From: Myrmaecium sp. VS I D KN 1
Lineage: Eukaryota > Ascomycota > Dothideomycetes > Valsariales > Valsariaceae
NCBI GenBank assembly: GCA_019775845.1
Contig: JADQAV010000016.1
Span: 62,001 to 126,000, forward strand
DNA length: 64,000 nt
Direction: 5' to 3'
Shown here: positions 3,803 through 64,000 of the stretch, piece after piece
How the letters are laid out: each line of letters starts with the position of its first letter
Position numbering within the stretch: the stretch's first letter is position 1
The notes under the pieces: generated by a model
Told to the model about the DNA's origin: nothing
Databases searched by the model: none
What the model saw: the letters and a program-made list of their open reading frames with translations, nothing else
Made by a program: the position numbers and the translations under genes

Positions 3803-4397
3803 GGAGGACAATCGGAGGGTTCAGGGGCAATCGTTGTAGAACAACGGAGCTTATACGAGTCAGAGAGCTCGAGGAGGCGCGGCTACAGGCGCCAACGCAT
3901 TGTCAGAGAGGACGGATGCGTGGCAGAGAGCAAGGAAGTGGGAAAAGAACAGTCTATGAGAGTTGAGGGGCGCGTACGAGCGTGGCCAGGGGGTGAAGTG
4001 CGATCTGCAGGAGCGCGGTGGTGAGGGTGGCCTTGGCACCCAGGTACCGCCGTACGCTAGACGGATGCGGAAATTAACCGCGGCGTGCGACCGGCGAAAG
4101 AAACAGAGCGTTTCTCTCCGTCGACGCGTTCCCGGCGCAAGGCCACATCCGACGGGACGTTCTGTTCGGCTGTCTCCCGTCATCCATCTCCCTCTCGTCC
4201 ATCCGAAGTCCCTGGCCAAGCAAGCTACCAGCATCCCTTGCCCGCCCACGCCGCCCTCCCGAGCCGCTTGGGACCCTTCCCCACACACACCCTGCCGACA
4301 TCCTAGCCGCTCGGGTTCTCCGCCCAGTCCGCGCGTGTACCTCCCCGCTGTGCTCCCTAACCCCGTTTCCCACCCGCATCACCGCATTCACTACAGT
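3803..4397. promoter_or_regulatory. Divergent promoter region, Uds1 gene / nat
   Basis: These 595 bp separate the two start codons and must hold both promoters. The part next to the acetyltransferase start (about 4180-4397) is strongly C/T-rich on the plus strand, as is usual for Pezizomycotina leaders. No TATA box or specific operator stands out. Confidence 0.55.
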
Positions 4398-5474
4398 ATG
4401 CCTGATGCTAAACAGCCTGTGTTGACTAACCTGGAGGTGGCTCGGTACTTCGACCGTATTCACCTCCCACCCCAGCATCGCATTTACGATGTTTCCCACA
4501 TGGACCCTGTGACGCAGCTCAGCCACCTGGCGGAGATCCAGAAATATCACCTCGTTTACGTTCCCTTCGAGAATCTAACCCTGCACTACTCCTCGCATCA
4601 CCAAATCAGCTTGGACATCGAGGATCTATTCAAGAAAGTGGTGGAAAATGCACGAGGTGGCTATTGCATGGAGAACAACACGATGTTCGGAACCCTGCTG
4701 AGGTCCATCGGCTACAGGCTGTACTCCGCCGGAGCACGGGTAAACGAAGGCGAGGATTACAACGGATGGTGAGTGAATAGTGAAAGGGCTATTGGAGTAG
4801 AGCTGCTTCGTAGATCTGCCGCCTAAATGATGTTTCATTTTCCTCCATTTCCCCTATCGTAGCAACAGGCCTAATGCATACGATAATATAGGAGCCATAT
4901 GATAAACATCGTCATTATCGGCTCCAAGCGCTATCACGTCGACGTCGGTTTCGGTCCGAACGGGCCAACCCGTCCTCTCGAGATCTCCCATGAGCCCTCG
5001 GTTCATGGCCAGACACATGTTCAGATTGCACCGGCAACGATGCGCCTCGTCTACAAGAATATCGCGGACAACACAGACCCTGATCAGCGACTGTGGGTGT
5101 ATCAGCATCGCATCGGTGACGATGCAGATTTTCAGGATACCTACTGTTTCACGGAACTGGAGTTCCTCCCTCAGGACTATGCAGTCATGAATTACTTCAC
5201 CAGCACAAGCTCGAAGACGTGGTTTACATCGAAGGTCATATGCGCGAGGATGATCTTCGAGGAGGCTGAAGACGGTGGGGCCCTTGCCGGAGCACTGATT
5301 GCGCAAGAGAACCTCAAAAAGAGATTGAACGGAGTCACAGAAGTTGTTGAAGAATTCAAGACGGAGGATGACAGAGTGAATGCGCTAGAGAAGCACTTTG
5401 GAATCAAGATGACGTCTGCGGAGAGGAATGGAATCAGAGGAATGACCACGGAGATCAAGGCGGAAGGCTCGTAG
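4398..5474 (+). CDS. nat: Arylamine N-acetyltransferase (NAT)
   Basis: Two exons, 4398..4768 and 4892..5474, encode 317 residues, a normal length for fungal NATs. The enzyme transfers an acyl group from acyl-CoA to arylamines or hydrazines in the cytosol. In Fusarium and relatives such enzymes detoxify plant benzoxazolinones or other xenobiotics. The cysteine-protease-like triad is complete: Cys90 in RGGYCMENN, His126 in SHM and Asp141 in VDVGFG. The 123-nt intron (GTGAGT ... ATATAG) falls inside the codon for Trp124, just before the catalytic His. Using the TATAG acceptor restores WSHMINIV, which is family-typical, so I prefer it to the nearer CGTAG and ACAG alternatives. The C-terminal 60 residues after the core domain are charged. 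Substrate preference (acetyl, malonyl or propionyl) cannot be read from the sequence. Confidence 0.93.
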
Positions 5475-5601: not shown

Positions 5602-6139
5602 CTATAGCCAACGCTTCTCCACCTGCGATTGCTGTCAGCAATCCAGTTTGTGCTAGGGCTGGGCTGTTCCACTTACCCGCCAAGGGTTGTTCAACTCGAA
5701 TCCAGGCGGCGCCAGCGGCTTGTCCGTCTGTCCACGCAAGAACCCAGTCAACCGCCTGTCACGATCCATCACTATTTCCAAATTTAGTATACTCTGCTCG
5801 GATGTCTGTTGCGATTCGCTTATAGGGAGATAGCATACTTTGCTATACGCAGGTGCACATTAGTTTAAACCTACGAGTTTAGTCGAAAGATGCGGGAAGA
5901 ACTTACCCTATCCCACCTATCAAGAGAACGCCTGCCTCTCTTTCCGCCATTCTGAAGGCTCCGCAGGAACGACAGACCGACACCGGTTACACCGAACATC
6001 TGTTATCAAAGCATCCCCAGTCAGCCAGTCAAGATGGATGCAATCTAAAGCCGGGTGGTAAGGTCTGTGGGAGTTGAAAGAGCCAACGTACGCCGAGCAT
6101 GATCCCGTAAGGGAGCAGAGCTTCGAATGGCACGCCCAT
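5602..6139 (-). CDS. Complex I subunit NDUFA1 / MWFE (NI9M), with 4-nt micro-exon
   Basis: Five exons, complement(5602..5622, 5677..5771, 5839..5842, 5907..5999, 6092..6139), give an 86-residue protein. It is a small accessory subunit of mitochondrial NADH:ubiquinone oxidoreductase, anchored in the inner membrane. Exon 1 encodes MGVPFEALLPYGIMLG, the conserved N-terminus. Exon 2 continues the single membrane helix and the basic NGGKRGRRSLDRWDR stretch. Exon 4 encodes MDRDRRLTGFLRGQTDKP and a proline-rich end. The family reads WDRQMMDRDRR across the exon 2/4 junction. That is obtained only if the 4 nt CAAA at 5839-5842, flanked by TATAG and GTATGC, is spliced in as its own exon. All introns are GT-AG (92, 64, 67 and 54 nt), and ACTAAT or TACTAAA branch-like motifs are visible in the two introns beside the micro-exon. 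The gene is divergent from the Sas3 gene. Confidence 0.88.
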
Positions 6140-7078: not shown

Positions 7079-10000
7079 ATGGGTAGGGAGACGGGAGGAA
7101 GACCCGAGGCTGAGGAGTCAGTGACCAAAAGCGACCTGGAAGGCGGCAGTGACATTGATGCAGAGGGGGAGGAGGATGACGGATTTGGCCACACCACATC
7201 TGGTGAAGGACATGAAGTGCAGACAGCAGAGGCTGAGAACTCAGATGTGGATGCTGAAGGTGAGGAGGTGGAAGATGAGCTCGCTGCTGCAGAGCCGGTT
7301 GGCGCTGTGAAAATATCAGAAGAGGATGCTGAAGGTTCTTCTGACGGTGAAGGGGAGATTGTGGTGGCGGAACTCGATCGCGACGTTGCATCGGAGTCCG
7401 AGAGCGAAAAGAGCGTCAGCTCACCAAACTTAGGCACTGATAGCTCTGACTCAGGTGCCGAGGGTGGTTGGGAAGGCGAGAGCGCAAGTTCGGAGGAGGC
7501 AGAGACGGAAATCGTGAACCCGAACCTATGCGTGTAAGTCCGGGGAACGCATGACTGGGTATGGCGTGGATACTAATGAAGCATTGATAGGTTCTGTGGA
7601 CAAGACGAAGAAAATGATCCAAGCGAGGAATTTGAAGATTACCTTGCATGCGCTGTATGTGGAGACAATGGTAAGTAGAAAATTGTATCGCGTTGGCAGA
7701 AGATTGAACTGACTTATGCTGTATCAACAGCCCATCGACAGTGCGCAAGGCATGCCAGTAGCCTCCACCCTGATGACGGTACGTAATCATCATCTGTGCC
7801 ACTCCTTCAACCTACGTACGCATCGCTGACTACCGCAGATCCCGCACACTGGCGGTGCCGGACTTGCGTTGAGCATGGTCTCGAGGAAGAATCAAAGCAA
7901 AAGGTTGAAACTACCACAACCCGCAGACGCTCTTCAATACCGAAGATCACCAGAGACCTTTTGCCGGCCTACAGAGGTGCACCAAAGCCTGATGCTCATT
8001 CCGTATTCAATACCTTGGTTCTTCCCGATGATCCCTTGGACGGCTCGCGTTCTCTACGAAAACGTAAGCAGTCTTCAGAAGATAGTGAGCAGCAAGCCGC
8101 GACAAGGTCAACACGGAAGCGGAGGAAGGCCTCCGACGCTGCTTCAAGAAACGGGGGTAGGGAAGTTTCGCTACCACGGTCTTCGCCAAACACCGTTAGA
8201 GTGATCATCGCCAGAGCCAATTCACAAGCGCTGGATCGTACTGGCTCAGAAGGTGAAGTGATACGTGGCGGAAGACCTTCACGTCTTAGGCGTTCCCGTC
8301 AACAAGATCCGAAGCGTGAAGTAGGTCATGAAGGCTCACTGGTTGTCGTTGAGCGTTCAAATGGGATTTGCTCGAAAGTCATTTTCCGACTCTCACCTGA
8401 CGAGCTCCGAAAAATAAAGTCGCGGAGGGCCAACCCAAACCGTAACCGTAGGCGCGATCGAACACGTAAGATTGTCCCGGCGCACACAGAACCTGAAGTG
8501 TCGCATTATCCGTCCATATCGACCAGTTTCAATATGAATCTCTTTGGCTTCCAGGACCGGGAGACGGACGAGTCGAAATCGAAACCCTATGGCGGCATCC
8601 TCACCGAAACCGAAGCCGACACTTCGAAGACTTTTCCTCAGGAGGTTGACCGTAGGAAGTTCGAGGCTGCCAGACAGAAAGCAGAAGAAGACTGGAAAGC
8701 AAAGATGGCTGCCGCGAATCTCGCCAATCCCGAACCTACTCGCACGTCACACAAAGTGGCCGGTCCTCCGAGCAAGATCAAATGCATCAACTTCGGCGGT
8801 TATGAGATCGATACATGGCATGCAGCTCCATATCCGGAGGAGTACAGTCGGAATAAGGTCCTCTACATTTGCGAATTCTGTTTAAAATACATGAACTCCG
8901 ATTATGTAGCTTGGCGACACAAGGTACGAACCTGTCTTTATAATATGACCGGTACCATCACTAATTATGATACAGCTAAAATGCCCTGCCAAGCATCCCC
9001 CGGGCGATGAAATATACCGCGATGGTCGATTCTCCTTTTTCGAAGTTGACGGGCGTAAGAACCCCGTATATTGCCAAAACCTTTGCCTTCTCGCCAAGCT
9101 CTTCCTGGGCTCGAAAACGTTATATTATGACGTTGAGCCCTTCCTTTTCTATGTCATGACGGAAAACAATGAATATGGCTGTCATTTTGTGGGTTATTTC
9201 TCGAAAGAGAAAAGGCCGAGTTCTATGAACAATGTGTCCTGTATCCTCGTCTTGCCGATCCATCAGCGAAAAGGATTTGGACACATGCTCATTGAGTTTT
9301 CTTACCTTCTGACCAGGGTGGAAAAGAAGACCGGAAGCCCAGAGAAGCCGCTGAGCGATATGGGCCTTGTGAGCTATCGCAGCTACTGGCGACTTATATT
9401 ATGTTATCAGCTGCTAGACCAACGGACACCTATAAGCATCGCGCAAATATCGGAACGCACTGGAATGACAGCTGACGATATCGTTTCAGCGCTTGAGGGG
9501 TTGCGTGCTCTGGTGCGGGATCCCGTCACGAAAACATACGCACTTCGCCTCGACTATACCTACTTCAAGCAATATATCGAGAAGTTCGAAGCCAAGAACT
9601 GGCCTAAGATAAACCCGGATGCTCTTGTCTGGACACCATACGTAATGGGCCGCAACAACTCACACTATGAAGATGGACCGGCGATTCACACCGTGGCGCA
9701 GCGTGAAGACGAGGAAGAGGACGAAGAGGAAGCTGAAGAAGGCGCGCAACCCAAGAACGCCACCTCGGAAGGCAGTGACGCCGGTAAAGAAGAGGCATTG
9801 CAAACTAATGGTCATTCCGAGATCAATGGCGGGGCATCAGCTTCACAAGGCAAAGCCAACCCGTACGCCACGAGTCCTTCCAAACCCGGGGCTGCTCCTT
9901 CTTTCGAAGAAGCCAAAAATCACCATCCAAACGGCGCCGCAAGCTCTAAAGGTTCTCGCACGCCCTCCATCTCCTCCGTGCCGTATATTCCACCCACCCG

Positions 10001-10475
10001 ATATGAAGTATACCCGCCTATTCCGGGCAATGCTGCCGGTAGCACCACCACCAGACGCCGATATAACCGACCTTTCGGGTCTAGAAGACGGCCAACTTCC
10101 GCCGTGACACCACTCAGGCGGAGCAACACCCTGTCAACTCCGGCACGTGGGATGGCTACGCGGACGCCCAAGGAACCACGAACCGTCAACGGAACGGTCA
10201 GGCGGACGAGAAGCAAGCTCGCCGAGGCCTTCACGCCGGATAGCGCGCATCATCCAGCGGACGAAGAGGTGATAGAGGATGATGACGAGGGTCATGACGA
10301 AGAGGAAGTAAGGAAAGTCATGCAGAGCGGTGATGAGGCGGATGCGGATGCGGAAGGGGAGCAAGAAAGCCCCGCCGCGCCATTGATGCCGGTTCTGCAA
10401 GACGAGGACTTGGTACACGGCGACGACGATATCGATGCCCAAGGCGAAGCCGATGTCGAGATGGTCGATGCGTGA
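7079..10475 (+). CDS. sas3: MYST histone acetyltransferase, Sas3/KAT6 type, with PHD finger
   Basis: Five exons (7079..7533, 7591..7670, 7731..7778, 7839..8923, 8976..10475) encode 1055 residues. The N-terminal 150 residues are very acidic. A C4-H-C3 PHD finger follows at about 150-210: CxxC in LCVFC, CxxC in ACAVC, HRQC, then WRCRTC. After a basic linker comes the MYST domain at about 520-800. It has the C2HC zinc finger (ICEFC ... HKLKCPAKH, completed across intron 4), the active-site segment SCILVLP, the acetyl-CoA loop QRKGFG and the EKPLSD motif with the catalytic Glu. The tail is acidic and Ser/Pro-rich. The yeast homologue is the catalytic subunit of NuA3, acetylating H3 K14/K23 in the nucleus. 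Yeast Sas3 itself lacks the fused PHD; in this it resembles metazoan MOZ/MORF. The start ATG at 7079 is the first in frame, and an additional upstream exon is possible. Confidence 0.93.
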
Positions 10476-29326: not shown

Positions 29327-31889
29327 ATGGCCTTTCAAGCTCCGCTCACCCTATCCGTAAGTGCTCCCCGCTGGCAGCAGTCGCGCCGCAGTTCCGCTGA
29401 CCTCTGTATAGATCCAGAACATGGTGACCGCCACTACTGAGTTATGGCCCTCGATGTCTGCTGTAATTCAGACGCCGTGGGGGTCTGGCCGTCTACGCCG
29501 CGGCACTCTCGTCTCCGCCGAAGAGCGCGCTGCTCCCCAGCATACCTTCGCTCCGATGAAGCCGCAGGTCGCTAAGGCAGCGTCATCGGTGCAGCTGCCC
29601 GAATGGCTGAACTCAGAGACAATCTCGGCCCTGCGCATCCGCTCGCAGACCCAGCCTTTTCAGTCAATCCCGACGGCTTCTGGCATATTTTCATCGGTTC
29701 ACCGGCGTGGTCTAGGGCTCTGTACGCCATTCGCATCCAGAGCTATGCCCGGTCTTTACAACGCGCGTTCCTACTCTTCTCTCAGTCGCATCATCTCTCC
29801 GAATCTTCGTCCCATTTCAAGGACCGGACAGCTGGGATTAATGCAACAGCGATCGTTCTTCGGCATCGGTGGCAACACCTCACGGAATCTTCTTGCGCAC
29901 ATGGAACAGACTGCCAACAATCACCCCCAAAGCGCTACCGCACAGAACGCGTTTTACTCCGCTTTGCTCCGCGCAAACATGCCCGAAATTGTTGTGGAAC
30001 GCTACCAGACCGGCCGGTTTGCATCGAACCCCGCTTGCGCGCAGCTGTATATACGTGCCTTGGAACAGATTGGACAAACAGAAAAGGCCTCGGCTTTCCA
30101 AAACGATATGGGCTCTACCGGAAAATCTTCCCTTAGTCAGAATCAGCTCCAGGCTGTGGGTCAAGCTGTTGGCGCCCGCGTCCGAGGCGGCAACGTATCC
30201 GTCGCTCGCAACGGCTCCGGCGCAAGGGAAAGTCCGCTCTACGTTGTGGTCGAAGAATCATATGGCAGTACAATCTTCAAATGGGTCAAGTTCCTCTTTT
30301 GGTTTGGTCTTATCACCTACTTCTCGCTTGTTGCCGTCACCTTAATTATCGAGGCAAGCGGGGTGCTGAAGAAGGTCGGTGGGGCCCAAAACGCAGAGGC
30401 AAAGCCTGAGCTTCAGACCACTCGATTCAGCGATGTCCACGGCTGCGATGAAGCCAAGGAAGAGTTACAGGAGCTGGTTGAGTTCCTCAAGGCTCCTGAC
30501 AAATTCTCGACCCTCGGCGGAAAGCTTCCTAAAGGTGTCTTGCTCGTTGGTCCTCCTGGAACCGGTAAGACTCTCTTGGCCCGTGCTGTTGCTGGTGAAG
30601 CTGGCGTTCCATTTTTCTACATGTCTGGCTCCGAATTTGACGAAGTATACGTTGGCGTTGGTGCTAAGCGTGTCCGGGAACTGTTTAACGCTGCTCGTGC
30701 CAAGGCCCCGTCCATTGTCTTCATTGACGAACTCGATGCCATAGGCGGCAAACGCAACGACAGGGATGCCGCTTATGTCAAGCAGACTCTGAATCAGCTT
30801 CTTACCGATCTTGACGGCTTCGACCAGAACTCCGGTGTCATCTTCCTGGCTGCTACCAACTTCCCTCAACTTCTCGACAAGGCATTGACGCGTCCTGGAC
30901 GCTTCGACCGAAGCATCACTGTCCCGCTCCCGGATGTCCGAGGCCGCGTGGAAATCCTGAAATACCACATGCGCAACATCCAGGTTGGCAATGACGTGGA
31001 TGCGGCGCTTATTGCTCGCGGAACTCCTGGATTCTCCGGTGCCGAGCTTGAGAACGTTGTGAACCAAGCAGCTGTACATGCCTCTAAGAACAAGCAGAAC
31101 AAGGTAACCATGAAGGACTTCGAATGGGCCAAGGACAGGATCATGATGGGCGCCGAACGTCGCAGTGCTGTTATTCAAGAGAAGGACAAGATCATGACAG
31201 CCTACCACGAGGGCGGCCATGCCTTGGTTGCCATGTTCACCAAGTACACTGACCCCCTCTACAAGGCGACCATCATGCCTCGCGGTCATGCCTTGGGCAT
31301 CACGTTCCAGCTGCCTGAAATGGACAAGGTCAGCATGGCTAAGAAGGAATACCTTGCAAAGATCGATGTCTGCATGGGCGGTAAAGTTGCCGAGGAGTTA
31401 GTTTACGGACCGGATGATGTCACCAGCGGCGCCTCCAGCGACATCCAGCAAGCGACACAGATTGCCTTCGCAATGGTGACTCAGATGGGCATGTCCGAAG
31501 AACTGGGCAACGTCGACCTGTACAGCGATTACGACCGCCTCTCCGCCCTGACGAAACAACGCATCGAAAAGGAGGTCCAGCGCATCATCGAAGAGTCGCG
31601 CAAGCGCGCCACAACGCTCCTGACCGAGCGACGCAAGGAGCTCGATCTGTTAGCCAAGGCCCTCGTTGAGAACGAGAGCCTGACGAAGGAGGAGATGGAG
31701 AAGGTGGTGAAGGGCGAGAAATTGCCGGATCGACTGCACTCGCTTAGCGGGGTGCCCATCAAGATTCCCGAGATACCCTTCCCGCCCGCTGTCGTTCCGC
31801 CCGGTGGCGCGGGCGGGAGCGATGGCGGAAAGGGCGGAGCCGGCGTGCCGGGTCAGCAGGGACCCGGGGCGTATCCGGGTAATGTGTGA
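29327..31889 (+). CDS. yme1: Mitochondrial i-AAA protease Yme1
   Basis: Two exons, 29327..29356 and 29412..31889, give 835 residues. The first exon is only 30 nt and encodes MAFQAPLTLS. The 55-nt intron has a GTAAGT donor and TATAG acceptor, and an in-frame ATG also lies just inside exon 2. Residues 1-150 are a Ser/Arg-rich mitochondrial presequence region. One transmembrane segment follows at about 290-325 (FLFWFGLITYFSLVAVTLII). The AAA+ module has Walker A GPPGTGKT (about 390) and Walker B IVFIDELDAIGG (about 445). The second region of homology includes ATNFPQLLDKAL and RPGRFDR. The M41 zinc-protease domain carries HEGGH at about 609. Yme1 forms a hexamer facing the intermembrane space that degrades unassembled inner-membrane and intermembrane-space proteins. 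The short Gly/Pro-rich tail is common in fungi. Confidence 0.97.
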
Positions 31890-62073: not shown

Positions 62074-62530
62074 TTTTGGTAATATCGTAATCCGGACTCG
62101 GGTCGAGCTGTTCAAGATGCAGAGGTTGAGTAGCGAGGAGCATATTCCTTCCACTTGGAGCTGTAAGGTGCTGTAGGGGAATTGACCTTGCAAGCTTAGT
62201 AGTGACGTCATATCCACAGGTAAGAGGGTGATCGGTTACAGCACGCTTACTTAGTAAAAATCAGCTCCTTCGTATTTAATCGACTGTAACGCCAAGGCCC
62301 TGCCACTCAGGCAACAACCCCTCCGAAAAGGGTGACACGATCCAGCAGCCATGCTGGTATCGCCGCAGGGACCCGTACATCAATGCCGCGATGCCTCAGT
62401 GCCTCGGTGCCTTACTGCCATGCTGGTCTTGCAGCCATGCGCAGCCTGACATCGACTAACCATCTCCGTTATTAACAATAACTTCTACCCTACCTTAGAG
62501 GGGAGAGGGGGGCCTCGAAACCGAAGATTC
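62074..62530. other. Promoter of DUF3429 gene and boundary to RIP block
   Basis: The first 200 bp are the likely promoter. At 62345-62440 the motif GCCATGCTGGT occurs twice, first preceded by GCA and later by CT, with extra GCAGCCATG pieces nearby, giving a small cluster of imperfect direct repeats. G+C is high until about 62520, where base composition changes abruptly. Confidence 0.5.
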
Positions 62531-64000
62531 TGCGAGATTTTTTAGTTAGCGTGGTATATAGTTATTAAAATAGATAAAAGAATTTTCGGTATGTTAATAA
62601 TATATATATTATAAATATATAGTAGATCTAGAATTTTACGTAAGTTATTACGTATTCTATAGTATATATATAAAGATAGGTCTTTAGTATAGCTACTACG
62701 TATCGGGAAAGTACGATATTTTAAGGATCTTATATATATATTCTTATTTACCGTAGGAAACCGGACTTTATAAATATATAGTATAAAAATAGTATAAATT
62801 CGGCTAGCTAGCTAGCGGCTTTAAGCTTTAGTATAAGTATATAACTCTAAATACCTTAAGTATTTAATTTATATTTATATATCTACCTACCTACTTACTT
62901 ACCTATTTATCTATCTATCTATCTATCTATTTATACTTATTTATCTATTTATTTATACCTATTTACTTATCTAATTTATTTATTTATCTATCTAATCTAT
63001 TTATTTAATCTATCTATCTATCTAATCTATATACCGTCTTAGAGGAATTATATTCGCTAGTTAATAAATAGTAGCTTATTACTTATACTAATATCTCTCT
63101 TACCGCGAAGGATACTATTAAAAGGTATAATATATAGTTTCTTAAGAGTAATAGTAGGAAGCTCGATAATCTCTATATTATTACCTACTATTATAATCTC
63201 TAAGCTTGTAGATAGATTAATATTATAAGGTTAATTAATAGCTATAATAATAACGAAGAGGCGGTATTCGCTAGAAAGAATCTTATATATAAAGATTTAG
63301 TTAATATAGCTAATCTTACTATAATACTCTATGAAATTACCTCTCTTAAATATATAATAATATTCCGTTTCTCTAAAGTTAGGTAAGTATATAATAATAA
63401 ATAGTATTAAATAATATATAGTAAACTTATATATTATTAAAAGAGAATTTCTTAAACTACTAGATTAGATTTCTACTAAAGTAGGTAATATTCTCTATAT
63501 TATAATCTAGATATATAGTCTATAACTACTTCCTAAGTTAATATCTATATAATTAAGTTGTATAAGTAGTTTAAGAATATTATAATAAAATTTTACTTAG
63601 ATTTTAACCTATATAGCTATATTTTAATAAATAGGATTATCGCGAAATAGTAAAGATTTATCTTCCTTATATCTATTATATTTAGATCGTAGTAGTAGAT
63701 AAGTAAAGAGAGTAGAATAAGTAAGGCGAAGTTATTTTAACTAAAATATTAAATAAAGCTCTTTAGAAGTATATATATTAATTAGAAGGAGCTAAATCGT
63801 TTATTATATATTTTCGTATATAAGAAGGTCTTTCTTAGGATTAATATAGTTAGTAAGATAGATATTCTTTTTAAATTAATAGTACTTATTTTTACCTATT
63901 AAGATATTATAGTTACTAACTAAGCTATATTAATCTATAATTACCTAATAGTAGAAACTAATATAAATATTTAGCTGCTTTATATCGTTGCGATATTACT
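62531..64000. repeat. RIP-degraded AT-rich repeat relic, family not identified
   Basis: From about 62531 to the window end the sequence is extremely A/T-rich, with long runs of TA steps. I find no CpA dinucleotide in about 1470 bases and only a handful of TpG, while CpG still occurs. This is the signature of repeat-induced point mutation, which converts CpA to TpA in duplicated DNA. The block is heavily degraded and continues beyond the window. No element family, terminal repeat or gene part can be named from what is left, and it looks old. Confidence 0.85.
62881..63030. repeat. CTAT/ATTT-type simple repeats inside the RIP block
   Basis: Imperfect (CTAT)n, (CTAC)n, (TTAC)n and (TTAT)n units alternate over about 150 bp. 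The purest run is CTAT near 62910-62930. It is a low-complexity patch within the degraded repeat. Confidence 0.85.

Follow-up and report, generated by a model that had tools for sequence, protein, structure and literature searches.

A very probable constitutive four-nucleotide exon in the NDUFA1/MWFE gene of the ascomycete Myrmaecium sp. VS I D KN 1

INTRODUCTION

Can four nucleotides serve as an obligatory exon in an otherwise ordinary fungal gene? The question is raised by a locus in a stretch of 64,000 nucleotides from Myrmaecium sp. VS I D KN 1 (assembly GCA_019775845.1, contig JADQAV010000016.1, positions 62,001 to 126,000; hereafter the window), in which the gene for a complex I subunit is predicted to contain an exon of this size. 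Tiny exons are rare and are already known in people and plants. Human MPC1 is reported to contain a constitutive 4-bp exon (PMC9929638), and exons of a single nucleotide have been described in Arabidopsis APC11 (PMC4674806) and plant VPS55 (PMC8831610), which is why the statement in an earlier note on this DNA that a 4-nt exon comes close to the lower limit for splicing was too strong.

According to the abstract of a report on Trichoderma virens, functional microexons were previously undescribed in filamentous fungi (PMC11121469). Our literature search of titles and the beginnings of abstracts returned no fungal 4-nt exon among the matches listed, and nothing on a microexon in NDUFA1 or an MWFE intron in Neurospora. 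No smaller nuclear exon in a fungus was found in the literature consulted; smaller ones have been reported in plants. Here, we propose from the genome sequence that the Myrmaecium NDUFA1 gene very probably holds a constitutive 4-nt exon required for its protein.

RESULTS

Five predicted exons encode an NDUFA1/MWFE protein

The gene occupies 6139-5602 of the minus strand and is predicted to divide into five exons of 48, 93, 4, 95, and 21 nt, separated by introns of 92, 64, 67, and 54 nt, all with GT-AG ends.

6092..6139, minus strand: exon 1 of NDUFA1/MWFE (48 nt), MGVPFEALLPYGIMLG, placed by homology to solved fungal subunits, with a GTACGT donor next to it
6000..6091, minus strand: intron 1 (92 nt, phase 0), GTACGT...CAG, with branch-like GGCTGAC; splice score 21.2
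5907..5999, minus strand: exon 2 (93 nt), ending at a codon boundary with GAT AGG
5843..5906, minus strand: intron 2 (64 nt, phase 0), GTAAGT...CTAAT...TATAG; splice score 20.1
5839..5842, minus strand: putative exon 3, the microexon CAAA (4 nt; Gln and the first base of Met)
5772..5838, minus strand: putative intron 3 (67 nt, phase 1), GTATGC...TACTAAA...TAG; splice score 6.3
5677..5771, minus strand: exon 4 (95 nt), starting with TG, MDRDRRLTGFLRGQTDKPLAPPGFELNNPWR, placed by homology to solved fungal subunits
5623..5676, minus strand: intron 4 (54 nt, phase 0), GTAAGT...TGCTGAC...CAG; splice score 25.6
5602..5622, minus strand: exon 5 (21 nt including the stop), VEKRWL

The product of this model is 86 amino acids long, free of stops and equal in length to its best solved relative. 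It matched the Pfam MWFE family (PF15879) over positions 1-55 of 55 with 92.0 bits (cut-off, 27), which upholds the earlier assignment to NDUFA1/MWFE. In a search of solved chains with E values up to 10, NDUFA1, NIMM, or MWFE accounted for 15 of the 17 distinct sequences (best, 3.3e-36), the other two being FtsH (E 1.2). The best relative, 7zm7_D, which we take to be from Chaetomium, aligned without gaps over residues 1-82 (126.6 bits), and the second, 6gcs_D (NIMM), presumably from Yarrowia, reached 74.6 bits. Judged by this homology, the gene encodes the NDUFA1/MWFE subunit of complex I. Even before assembly of the exons, a six-frame search found an MWFE match of 35.6 bits at 5999-5892, covering exon 2 and 15 nt of intron. 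Exon 4 was returned with 5.3e-17 as a translated match of the assembled protein to the genome, a value that is circular for its own genome.

A second NDUFA1 copy was not found in the 25.66-Mb assembly, of which only the best candidates were scored, and a pseudogene or duplicate copy was ruled out by the intact frame together with this result. Two scans each of the IMG/VR and GTDB contigs, viral and prokaryotic collections in which fungal genes are hardly expected, also found no relative of the locus. To go by the title of one study, mammalian mitochondria reportedly require NDUFA1 for the activity of complex I. It is described as a single-helix accessory subunit that joins as complex I subassemblies connect (PMC8762328). 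The Myrmaecium gene and its protein are ordinary, and the gene is probably essential.

Splice signals of the introns flanking CAAA

As a reference for splice signals, 14 introns situated between coding flanks were picked by strict motifs in a 264-kb part of this contig (GTRNGY, CTRAY, and YAG, with the branch motif within 45 nt); four mock motif sets yielded 0, 2, 3, and 0 introns. The reference introns measured 56-88 nt (median, 67), so the lengths of 64 and 67 nt on either side of CAAA are typical, and their splice scores ranged from 17.2 to 28.0. Intron 2 (5906-5843), at 20.1, falls inside this range, and only 0.18% of 9,933 GT..AG pairs sampled from the minus strand of the window scored at least as high.

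Intron 3 (5838-5772), at 6.3, lies below all 14 references, although these are poor judges of departures from the motifs because they were selected with them, and 17.7% of the 9,933 sampled pairs reached or exceeded its score. Its donor and acceptor have poor matrix scores (2.5 and -0.1), and its branch-like CTAAA does not conform to CTRAY. In an earlier, noisier splice model, too, this intron stood at percentile 0; that unsupervised model had been dropped as contaminated, with GAG in 31 of its 86 acceptors. The weak signals of intron 3 are the chief evidence against the microexon.

The 135 nt that separate exon 2 from exon 4 contain a single CTRAY motif, which starts at 5863 within intron 2. 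Among the reference introns, which were chosen with the motif at most 45 nt away, the distance from branch adenine to acceptor was 9-36 nt in 14 of 14. A rule that the first AG past the branch is always used was abandoned as unsupported, since it was true for 9 of the 14.

Effects of including and skipping CAAA

CAAA was located at 5842-5839 of the minus strand (TTTG at 5839-5842 of the plus strand; the earlier note named no strand). It stands between TATAG and GTATGC, and thus between AG and GT, with putative introns of sufficient length for splicing on its two sides (64 and 67 nt). These flanks had been described before, as had a preceding 93-nt exon of phase 0 (5999-5907, ending in GAT AGG) and a following 95-nt exon with an initial TG (5771-5677), and we recovered each of them. 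With CAAA included, the conserved reading frame is kept. CAA would supply the conserved glutamine and the final A would complete the ATG of the next methionine, giving WDRQMMDRDRR, to be compared with WDKQQMERDRR and WDSQMMERDLR in the fungal references. Q48 and M50 are invariant in the three aligned sequences, i.e., this protein and the two references; residue 49, also touched by the microexon, is M in this protein and one of the references but Q in the second reference. Since the protein needs the residues that CAAA encodes, we infer that the microexon is always included.

Removal of introns 2 and 3 as one, with the same outer sites, would bring in a stop after 47 residues; the ...WDR-stop junction foretold for skipping was confirmed by translation. 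Such a 47-residue product would amount to loss of function, not to an alternative protein. Its stop would fall where exon 4 begins, before intron 4, and the transcript might be a target of nonsense-mediated decay. If only intron 3 were retained (5842-5677, minus strand), the frame would read WDRQSMLSPYKRIATDIRAEYTKFGNSDGS and then stop, so retention would truncate the protein too.

These consequences could be taken to mean that the microexon is real but regulated, with skipping under some conditions leading to the stop and thereby lowering the amount of the subunit and hence of complex I. Skipping would place the stop where exon 4 begins, with one more intron still to follow, and this, like the weak signals of intron 3, would suit such a role. 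A regulated microexon is reported in T. virens Xlr2 (PMC11121469), and in Drosophila alternative splicing is reported for 283 of the 411 microexons flanked by an exon on either side (PMC8042270). However, skipping shifts the frame for every exon with a length not divisible by three, and such a shift is no sign of regulation; constitutive inclusion is reported for the human MPC1 exon of 4 bp (PMC9929638). No result pointed to regulation, and a constitutive, needed exon is the simpler explanation; the on/off switch that the earlier note had envisaged for this subunit was thus not substantiated, and we consider it improbable. It is likewise improbable that the 4-nt exon is conserved in filamentous ascomycetes and that the weak downstream intron makes its skipping or retention responsive to conditions, thereby setting the amount of complex I.

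Alternative joins between exon 2 and exon 4

The possible joins of exon 2 to exon 4 were enumerated, with donors restricted to GT or GC, acceptors to AG, and intron lengths to 40-200 nt. This gave 666 open readings, comprising 38 with a single intron and 628 with two, and the microexon reading had the best homology of them all. Inclusion of CAAA does restore the family block, as had been claimed; that nothing else would do so proved untenable, since the 38 single-intron readings are open and include one that yields WDRVMMDRDRR. A ranking on the weakest intron's splice score left the microexon reading outside the best 12 open readings and was led by 5906-5806 (22.5) and 5906-5794 (22.0). Most weight is carried by a conditional argument. 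Once intron 2 is removed, retention of the remainder leads to a stop, and the frame is reopened only by a second intron at 5838-5772 (GT donor, at least 40 nt); with intron 2 gone, only the CAAA exon stays open.

The two leaders of the score ranking correspond to a single intron running from the GTAAGT at 5906 to an acceptor at 5806 or 5794, without any microexon. Both readings are open, yet this is weak evidence, because random stretches of 8-12 codons often are. In place of QM they would put 12 residues (TSEQSILNLEIV; acceptor 5806) or 8 residues (SILNLEIV; acceptor 5794) before MDRDRR. These insertions disrupt the conserved block, reducing the Pfam score to 76.5 and 77.6 bits, respectively, versus 92.0 bits, and the score against the best solved relative to 109.1 and 112.4 bits, versus 126.6 for the microexon reading. 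Moreover, with the sole CTRAY starting at 5863, its adenine would lie 54 and 66 nt upstream of the acceptors, versus 9-36 nt in the references; the matrix scores of the two readings rested on a different, non-CTRAY branch-like match. An insertion of this kind thus has a low probability in our view.

Least probable is a single 131-nt intron from a GTTCTT donor at 5902 to 5772, in which GTAA, kept in exon 2, would replace CAAA: the resulting WDRVMMDRDRR is gap-free and nearly equal in homology (Pfam, 90.0 versus 92.0 bits; best relative, 123.4 versus 126.6 bits), but the donor is poor with a perfect GTAAGT only 4 nt upstream (total score, -1.3), the glutamine common to both fungal references is lost, and the good intron 5906-5843, of a quality found in 0.18% of sampled pairs, would have to be a coincidence, as would the in-frame CAAA. 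In homology, then, both insertion models fall far behind the microexon model and the model with valine only slightly, and the splice signals are compatible with single-intron models.

Chance occurrence of a matching microexon

Chance occurrence was estimated with two null models. In one, the 135-nt stretch was shuffled with its dinucleotides kept and the GTAAGT and TAG ends fixed, allowing GT donors and introns of at least 45 nt. In 8 of 5,000 shuffles, some GT-AG reading without gaps resembled the two fungal reference blocks as closely as the real one does, and all 8 reached it via a 4-nt exon; with the outer sites fixed, 4 nt is the only exon length that leaves no gap relative to the relatives. 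In the other, 126-nt stretches from both strands of the first 62,000 bases of the window served as the intron body. Some open 4-nt exon was obtained in 2,613 of 20,000 cases, one scoring at least as high as the real exon in 51, and one scoring as high with a CTRAY motif ahead of the acceptor in 20. Such a microexon rarely arises by chance.

Surroundings of the gene

Several other features of the window were noted around the gene, and scans for Rfam families and tRNAs found no matches in it.

3963-4772, plus strand: open reading frame with a match at its end to arylamine N-acetyltransferase (Pfam PF00797; solved chain 7qi3_A), convergent with the NDUFA1 gene
7796-10475, plus strand: MYST-type histone acetyltransferase over two overlapping open reading frames (zf-MYST, then MOZ_SAS), which an intron near 8967-9010 probably connects
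29421-31889, plus strand: open reading frame of 822 codons for a Yme1-like mitochondrial AAA protease, with AAA and M41 peptidase matches
62500-64000: AT-rich block, running on along the contig to about window-equivalent 69500, with 20-26% GC
about window-equivalent 92000-111000: second low-GC block

Elsewhere in the window, the GC content of 4-kb bins is 51-56%. In 1,500-base bins of the AT-rich block (63001-69000), TpA/ApT was 1.5-1.7 and (CpA+TpG)/(ApC+GpT) was 0.02-0.07, a very strong signature that resembles repeat-induced point mutation. Along with the closest solved relative of the NDUFA1 protein, this block would suggest a filamentous ascomycete.

DISCUSSION

We consider the locus to be an ordinary gene for a complex I subunit with a constitutively included third exon of 4 nt, and assign this reading a probability of roughly 0.87. 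Its introns of 64 and 67 nt, four bases apart, are near the usual size for the contig, and each would most likely be recognized as a unit by the spliceosome, that is, by intron definition. Introns 2 and 3 would then be removed one after the other, because four bases offer no room for two machines simultaneously. We infer this order and mode of splicing, as well as the use of the exon and its constitutive inclusion, from the genome; the identity of the gene, the splice-site dinucleotides, the reading frame, and the effect of skipping can be read from it directly.

One near likeness among known tiny exons is that of human MPC1, which is also a four-base, frame-changing exon of a nuclear gene whose product is mitochondrial (PMC9929638). 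It differs in gene and sequence, in its long flanking introns, and in its reported reliance on exon-definition signals within the neighboring introns (PMC9929638), whereas both introns flanking the NDUFA1 microexon measure 64-67 nt. Like the NDUFA1 microexon, the plant APC11 and VPS55 exons are needed to keep the frame. They were missed by annotation, and for APC11 intron definition together with stepwise (recursive) splicing has been proposed by the authors (PMC4674806). The plant exons differ in being 1 nt long and in having been put to the test, with constructs or with RNA-seq plus RT-PCR (PMC4674806, PMC8831610). Among fungi, Xlr2 of T. virens likewise has a microexon in a filamentous ascomycete, but in a gene for a transcription regulator and with switch-like behavior toward glucose (PMC11121469). 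In P450 genes of the white rot basidiomycete Phanerochaete chrysosporium, microexons also lie between small introns, but these are other genes and the shortest exon reported has 6 bp (2 amino acids) (PMC1184071).

Plant microexons are easily overlooked by gene finders and read mappers (PMC8831610). A frame-changing exon of 4 nt is similarly easy to miss for both, so fungal gene sets may well carry faulty annotations of NDUFA1. With introns of 64-67 nt lying four bases apart, this gene would offer a compact natural test of stepwise intron definition in fungi.
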